Part shown: positions 3,578 through 38,770 of the stretch, piece after piece
How positions within the stretch are numbered: position 1 is the stretch's first letter
Layout of the letters: each line of letters begins with the position of its first letter
Assembly: GCA_017458185.1 (NCBI GenBank)
Contig: JAFTFY010000028.1
Coordinates: 1-64,000 of the forward strand
Direction of reading: 5' to 3'
DNA: 64,000 bases
Origin: Neisseriaceae bacterium
GTDB lineage: Bacteria; Pseudomonadota; Gammaproteobacteria; Burkholderiales; Neisseriaceae
The notes under the pieces: model-generated
What the model saw: only the letters and a program-made list of their open reading frames with translations
Database searches by the model: none
What the model was told of the DNA's origin: nothing
Translations under genes and position numbers: made by a program

Positions 3578-3684
3578 TATAGTCAAACAACTTCAAAATT
3601 GAAATGCGTTGGTTTGCCTTGCCGTATTACTTATACTGTCGCAGGCAAAGCCGCCTGTTTCACTTTTGAATTTGTTTGACTATA
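3578..3684. repeat. Correia-like element K1
   Basis: This 107-bp element has terminal inverted repeats beginning TATAGTCAAACAA and ending TTGTTTGACTATA. The interior has the Correia core (TTGCCTTGCCGTATTA, then ATACTGTCGCAGGCAAAGCCGCC). In Neisseria, Correia repeats are non-autonomous mobile elements with TATAGT ends that can carry promoters and be cut by RNase III. This one sits between the divergent recQ and lipoprotein genes. Confidence 0.8.
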
Positions 3685-13490: not shown

Positions 13491-13826
13491 TATAGTCAAA
13501 CAACTTCAAAATGTTAAAAACCGTGTCATTGCGAGCCGTGATGAAATCACGGCGTGGCAATCCAATGAATTGCATAGCAATTCATCAACGCTGATAAGCG
13601 TTGTAACGGACTTATCTGCTATCATTTCAGGCAACCTGAATTGTTTATGAACTTTGTCATTACAACGCCTATGGCGTTGGTGAAAAATCTGCGATTTTTC
13701 ACTGGATTACCACACCTTGACTTTCGTCAAGGCTCGTAATGACACACAGGATTAAATTTAAATTGTAGAATATTTATGCACAGTGCATTGTTTTTATTTT
13801 TTGTATTTTGAAGTTGTTTGACTATA
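13491..13826. repeat. Chimeric element K2: Correia-type ends around a TCATTGCGAG cargo
   Basis: It begins with TATAGTCAAACAACTTCAAAAT and ends with the inverse complement, as in K1. The Correia core is absent. The interior instead holds GTGTCATTGCGAGC, a series of small hairpins (ATCACGG, ATTGCATAGCAAT, CGCTGATAAGCG, CAACGCC...GGCGTTG, CTTGACTTTCGTCAAG), a DUS variant near 13630, and an inverted CTCGTAATGACAC end. The total of 336 bp is too long for a simple Correia repeat. Confidence 0.65.
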
Positions 13827-38308: not shown

Positions 38309-38385
38309 GCTCCCATCGTCTAGTCGGCCTAGGACATCGCCCTTTCACGGCGGTAACTGGGGTTCGAATCCCCATGGGAGTGCCA
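38309..38385 (+). tRNA. tRNA-Glu (anticodon TTC), CCA encoded
   Basis: A full cloverleaf: the acceptor stem GCTCCCA pairs with TGGGAGT, and the anticodon arm CGCCC-TTTCACG-GCG carries TTC. GGTTCGAATCC forms the T-arm, and the gene ends with an encoded CCA. The anticodon and body match bacterial tRNA-Glu. Confidence 0.95.
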
Positions 38386-38387
38386 TT

Positions 38388-38490
38388 TAATCGTTTTACT
38401 TAAATATAATACCGCGTTGGTCATTCTTTGCCGTATTATTCATACTATCAAAGGCTTACCGCCTTGTCTGATATTCAATTAAAACGATTA
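38388..38490. repeat. Correia-like element K5 between two tRNA genes
   Basis: The arms TAATCGTTTTACTTAAATAT (38388-38407) and ATATTCAATTAAAACGATTA (38471-38490) pair imperfectly. The interior has CGCGTTGGTCATTC, TTTGCCGTATTATTCATACT and GCTTACCGCCTTGTC, as in other Correia copies. The usual TATAGT ends are missing. It fills almost the whole spacer between tRNA-Glu and tRNA-Pro. Confidence 0.6.
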
Positions 38491-38508
38491 AACGCTTCAA
38501 AACCAAGT

Positions 38509-38585
38509 CGGAGTGTAGCGCAGTCTGGTAGCGCATCTCGTTCGGGACGAGGGGGTCGAAGGTTCGAATCCTTTCACTCCGACCA
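38509..38585 (+). tRNA. tRNA-Pro (anticodon CGG), CCA encoded
   Basis: The acceptor stem CGGAGTG pairs with the 3' CACTCCG; the D-arm is GCGCAGTCTGGTAGCGC; the anticodon arm has loop TTCGGGA (CGG); the T-arm is GGTTCGAATCC; CCA is encoded. The body closely follows E. coli tRNA-Pro(CGG). Confidence 0.95.
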
Positions 38586-38664: not shown

Positions 38665-38770
38665 TATAGTCGATTCACAGCAAAATCATGCAGCGTTACT
38701 TCGCCTTGCCGTATTATCTATACTGTCTTCGGCTCGTTGCCTTGCCTGTTTTTGCTGTGAACCGACTATA
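38665..38770. repeat. Correia-like element K6
   Basis: A clear 106-bp copy: TATAGTCGATTCACAGCAAAA at the left, TTTTGCTGTGAACCGACTATA (reading rightward) at the right, and the core CAGCGTTACTTCGCC, TTGCCGTATTATCTATACTGTC and GCTCGTTGCCTTGCC. This is the copy most like the Neisseria consensus. Confidence 0.85.

Follow-up and report, generated by a model that had tools for sequence, protein, structure and literature searches.

The repeats described here are probably miniature IS630-group transposons of the Correia type (CREE/nemis), with arms that represent IS630-type terminal inverted repeats. They form one family, which inserts at TA and is divided into arm subfamilies; the two arms covary, and two arm classes agree with the ends of an IS630 element at 20-21 of 21 positions. 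Six copies are located in the window, i.e. in the whole analysed stretch of 64,000 nucleotides, situated on contig 11 of a 2.13 Mb genome comprised of 40 contigs:

3578..3684, + strand: Correia-type element, arm subfamily C (AAACAACTTC), 109.1 bits
29352..29457, - strand: older Correia-type element, arm subfamily D (AATAAACTTC), 95 bits
35465..35547, + strand: Correia-type element, internally shortened to 83 bp, B-like arms, 50 bits
38386..38492, + strand: old Correia-type element in the tRNA-Glu/tRNA-Pro spacer
38665..38770, + strand: Correia-type element of 106 bp, arm subfamily A (TATAGTCGATTCACAGCAAAA / TTTTGCTGTGAACCGACTATA), 122.1 bits
60615..60720, - strand: Correia-type element, arm subfamily B (AATTCATACC / GGTCTGAATT), 112.5 bits

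All six had been named in a first-pass annotation, and all of them are real, displaced by no more than two bases. Of the core which that annotation considered common to the copies, GCCTTGCCGTATTA, the 35465 copy lacks an exact version, and the 38386 copy carries it with two mismatches. The exact core occurs 53 times in the genome, while its reversed control does not occur at all. A covariance model trained on 49 of the copies retrieved about 118 distinct ones genome-wide. Metagenome assemblies of rumen Neisseriaceae, from sheep omasum and yak reticulum, are among the relatives in the same genus. No match was obtained in the phage collection searched.

Relation to Correia elements

The resemblance to Correia elements proposed in the first-pass annotation is borne out by model R1, built from these copies, which recovers canonical Neisseria Correia elements. 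Its hits include the short Neisseria form in L251 (E 1.9e-18) and, in L250, the form of 157 bp (E 2.5e-10); both of these have GGATTAA-type ends as published (PMC2649163). Most of the ~118 copies are 105-108 bp long, in agreement with Correia element lengths of 104-108 or 153-157 bp (PMC2649163). The published 26-bp repeat, TATAG[CT]GGATTAA(CAAAAA or ATTTAAA)... (PMC2649163), is not matched: ends in the studied copies read TATAGTC with other continuations, and what is common to both are the first five bases and the end asymmetry described below. For this reason, we class the elements as a Correia-type relative and not as the published neisserial repeat. At gathering scores, no Rfam family matches these elements. 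According to a study from 2009, Correia repeats had until then been found only in Neisseria, with an undetermined mobilising mechanism (PMC2649163).

A 70-bp element elsewhere in the genome (L129:245-314; G000:C33:35804-35873) has two identical outer arms (TATAGTCAATTCAGACCAAAA) and resembles the Correia size class of 69-73 bp.

Arm covariation and arm subfamilies

Alignment of copies shows that variable positions of one arm are followed closely by the other. At variable positions 8-12, 15-16, 23-24, and 26-27, the two arms of a copy are 0.88 identical, whereas arms of different copies reach 0.46. The arms have a covariation score of 0.314; shuffling the partners gives 0.093±0.007, and sliding them never gives more than 0.085. 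Pairing of arms within each copy, as initially suggested, is even stronger genome-wide than in the window. The accompanying description of arms as copy-specific holds inside the window but not in the genome as a whole, where 20 of 49 aligned copies share the arm GATTCACAGC, and other arm types recur as well. Approximately seven recurring subfamilies can be distinguished, besides older variants and a few hybrids, L032 among them:

Arm subfamily A: GATTCACAGC
Arm subfamily B: AATTCATACC
Arm subfamily C: AAACAACTTC
Arm subfamily D: AATAAACTTC/GATAAACTTC
Arm subfamily E: GTTAAACTTC
Arm subfamily F: AAAATACTTC
Arm subfamily G: GTTTCATAGC

Many or most copies are mismatched at positions 14, 22, 25, 28, and partly 9. 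The mismatch at position 25 is a T/G difference present in 42 of 72 distinct arm pairs, and the one at position 9 is an A.C mismatch fixed in subfamily A; such fixed mismatches survive amplification of copies. Pairing also reaches positions 33-35, inward of the terminal repeat (0.64, vs 0.48 in shuffles within arm class). The predicted fold of the 38665 copy has an energy of -41 kcal/mol.

Insertion sites and turnover

The first-pass annotation had proposed a check for TA target duplications, and insertion at TA, with duplication, is evident from nested elements. In L022, one element has inserted into the core TA of a second one, and the same core is uninterrupted in the related genome G006. 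In the second case, L023, a 340-bp element resides within a core TA. At the site of G005 that corresponds to 38665 there is no element, and the TA reads TG. Few copies are common to G006, despite ~95% identity of its orthologous genes, indicating a high turnover of elements. In another genome (G073), an IS630-type end sequence is inserted at TA in a Correia element core (L260:1001-1170).

The window also harbours a second repeat with C-type ends:

13491..13826, + strand: 336-bp repeat with TATAGTCAAACAACTTCAAAA at both ends

Many further copies of this repeat, 335-340 bp long, exist in the genome, and their interior is unrelated to the Correia core. Long elements were also sought behind lone arms; 14 of 20 such stretches reach ~2.7 kb, and judged by their ends they represent only truncated, nested, or 340-bp copies. 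Among these stretches, coding content was inspected for L218 only, in which a phosphoglycerate mutase-like gene is located.

Similarity of arms to IS630 ends

In the Neisseriaceae, IS630-family elements have TATAG ends. One of them, L245 in a genome of a sister genus (G012), is 939 bp long, contains IS630 HTH and DDE domains in two frames, and ends in TATAGTCAATAAACTTCAAAA and TATAGTAAAACAACTTCAAAA. These ends are identical at 21/21 and 20/21 positions to arm classes D and C, respectively, the latter being the class of the 3578 copy. A Correia-type element is located ~300 bp from L245 on the same contig. The T/G arm mismatch at position 25 recurs as the difference between the upstream end (GTAC) and the downstream end (GGAC) of g10 IS630 elements, which are of the Neisseria type, and the same difference is present in published Correia ends CCGGTACGG/TCAGGACAA (PMC2649163). 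No IS630 element with ends of arm type A, the commonest one, or of type B was found, the best agreement being 16-17/21. In G044, a 117-bp element (L247:2409-2525) has ends nearly the same as those of a neighbouring IS630 element.

In the origin that we favour, an IS630-type transposon would have lost its transposase gene, and the two arms would be its left and right terminal inverted repeats. The elements insert at TA and would be moved in trans, probably by IS630 transposases. Amplification of several lineages with unlike ends would make arms differ between copies, and arms would match within each copy because both ends presumably must be recognised together; joint recognition by the transposase would keep the ends alike. 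The pairing inside the terminal repeat may reflect a further constraint on the folded-back element.

The same pattern characterizes IS630 elements themselves. Among 13 dissimilar IS630 elements, the two ends are 0.78 alike within an element and 0.45 between elements, the former value being inflated because ends were picked by highest end identity. Arm matching is therefore largely ordinary behaviour of terminal repeats. Position by position, however, matching in Correia arms does not correlate significantly with matching in IS630 ends (rho 0.23, P 0.25). As L245 has two different ends, its transposase must tolerate some mismatch.

Several observations speak against the explanation that we favour: the missing IS630 element with ends of type A or B, the uncorrelated match profiles, the inflated end identity of IS630 elements, and the unequal ends of L245. 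Recognition of ends also does not explain the pairing beyond the terminal repeat. In addition, profiles PF13358 (E up to 0.001) and PF01710 (over cut-off) detected no IS630 transposase in seven genomes of the genus, although insertions look recent; five of the six other genomes are in at least 140 contigs, a state in which multi-copy elements often drop out. Past insertions do not need a transposase partner in the same genome today. An IS4/IS5-type transposase (PF01609), tried as another candidate, is absent from the genome studied here.

Because two arm classes agree with ends carried by a real IS630 element, and Neisseria-type IS630 elements show the Correia end asymmetry, the question of the mobiliser becomes testable. 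According to a review from 2007, nobody had looked for or found likeness between ends of this kind and insertion sequences, with the exception of RUP (PMC2229807), while a paper from 2010 lists Correia elements as IS630-derived (PMC2817692).

The copy in the tRNA spacer

The element at 38386-38492 fills the spacer between two tRNA genes and has a TTTAATC end on both arms:

38309..38385, + strand: tRNA-Glu, directly upstream of the element
38509..38585, + strand: tRNA-Pro, directly downstream of the element

In G001 and G003, the tRNA-Glu/tRNA-Pro spacer is short and without a Correia element. In G006 (L179, G006:C16:53870-54390), two Correia-like hairpins are arranged in tandem between these genes; outer arms of the second are quite different (GGTTG...) and still look able to pair.

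Between the tRNA-spacer copy and its counterpart in G006, both arms have changed at position 5 (A/A to G/G) and at position 20 (T/T to C/C), and position 17 has changed from A/G to T/T. Overlap of changed positions between the arms has a P of 0.005. Three orthologous pairs were examined, this copy being a single locus among them, and in the two others shared with G006 changes are exclusively one-sided. The changes in the tRNA spacer suggest that the tRNA-spacer copy is a domesticated RNA hairpin, a case in which a transposon hairpin may have joined tRNA operon processing. Only tentatively, and with more doubt than confidence, do we extend this to a combined proposal, according to which arm pairing would be selected beyond the needs of the transposase, and the tRNA-spacer copy would have been domesticated as a processing hairpin of the tRNA transcript, maintained through compensating changes, and duplicated in tandem in one relative.

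How arms change and alternative explanations

To follow changes in arms, a minimum spanning tree was constructed over 97 copies, and changes at paired positions were counted per edge. Between near-identical copies (≤ 6 differences), 17 changes are one-sided and none is compensated; one additional change in this class affects both sides without keeping the match. Edges with more than 10 differences carry 58 compensated and 102 one-sided changes, and compensated changes number 62 in all. The arms thus do not change jointly in a single step; it is only over longer lineages that pairing is regained. The counts bear directly on mutational copying of one arm onto the other, by template switching or cruciform repair, which would alter both arms at once and without selection. 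Although the double changes preserving the match on longer edges are what such a process would leave, it is opposed by the near-identical copies, by the persistence of the position 25 mismatch beside the freely covarying position 26, and by amplification of subfamily A with its fixed A.C mismatch. The process is already disfavoured, and we hold it to be very unlikely; the suggestion in the first-pass annotation that arms are replaced together is likewise unsupported, given the one-sided changes between near-identical copies and the fixed mismatches.

The other suggestion made there, that the paired structure is selected, survives in part. Much of the matching is usual for IS630 terminal repeats, but two features go further: pairing that reaches inward of the terminal repeat, and compensating pairs in place at the tRNA-spacer copy. 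In its full form, this explanation states that the folded-back hairpin itself is selected, either as a signal in RNA processing or stability or as DNA in transposition, with a change in one arm being compensated afterwards and matching being more than a by-product of shared ends. Position 26, where all four Watson-Crick types occur with 0.89 matching beside the common mismatch at position 25, is consistent with such selection, as are the pairing at positions 33-35 and the in-place compensation in the tRNA spacer. Furthermore, when arms are swapped between subfamilies, the RNA is predicted to be less stable on average (-27 instead of -38 kcal/mol). Opposed to this are the uncompensated changes between near-identical copies, the two orthologous pairs without a compensating change, and IS630 elements of 900 bp, which match at their ends with no evident need of a hairpin. 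G-U pairs are also not commoner than A-C mismatches (36 vs 44), a comparison uninformative about selection at the RNA level. Altogether, we find selection of the hairpin itself rather unlikely as the general explanation.

A different mobiliser would be the single-copy RAYT (REP-associated tyrosine transposase) of this genome (NF047646, 170 bits), a reader of hairpins, in which case the elements would be REPIN-like repeats. REPIN hairpins do show compensatory changes (PMC3116915), and no DDE_3 or DDE_Tnp_1 transposase is present in the genome. However, the RAYT gene (L236:1354-1890, G000:C13) is flanked by its own GTAG palindromes (GTAGGGTGGG...CCCACC) and not by Correia arms, so that gene and elements do not share the same repeat; moreover, arms match IS630 ends and insertion occurs at TA. 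We rejected RAYT as the mobiliser and consider this origin extremely improbable.

Comparison with known systems

REPINs with RAYT are likewise short, high-copy hairpin elements with compensatory changes (PMC3116915), whereas the elements studied here lack the GTAG tag, insert at TA, and have ends of the IS630 (DDE) type. RUP of Streptococcus pneumoniae is a miniature element of 107 bp for which an IS630 transposase with similar ends was proposed as the mover (PMC2229807); it differs in host and in its shorter terminal repeat, and is likened here by description and not by sequence. With Neisseriaceae IS630 elements such as L245, the Correia-type copies share terminal repeats, TA ends, and the matching pattern, with classes C and D agreeing at 20-21 of 21 positions, and differ in that IS630 elements are 0.9 kb long and carry transposase genes, of which the copies have none. 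As regards CREE/nemis of Neisseria, the size class of 104-108 bp, TATAG ends, insertion at TA, a homologous core, the T/G end asymmetry (GGTAC vs GGAC), and many intergenic copies are common to both. Differences are the TATAGTC ends, the approximately seven arm subfamilies in place of the published end variants, the long IHF-carrying form, not seen among the copies examined here, and the host, which in this case is a rumen Neisseriaceae genus.
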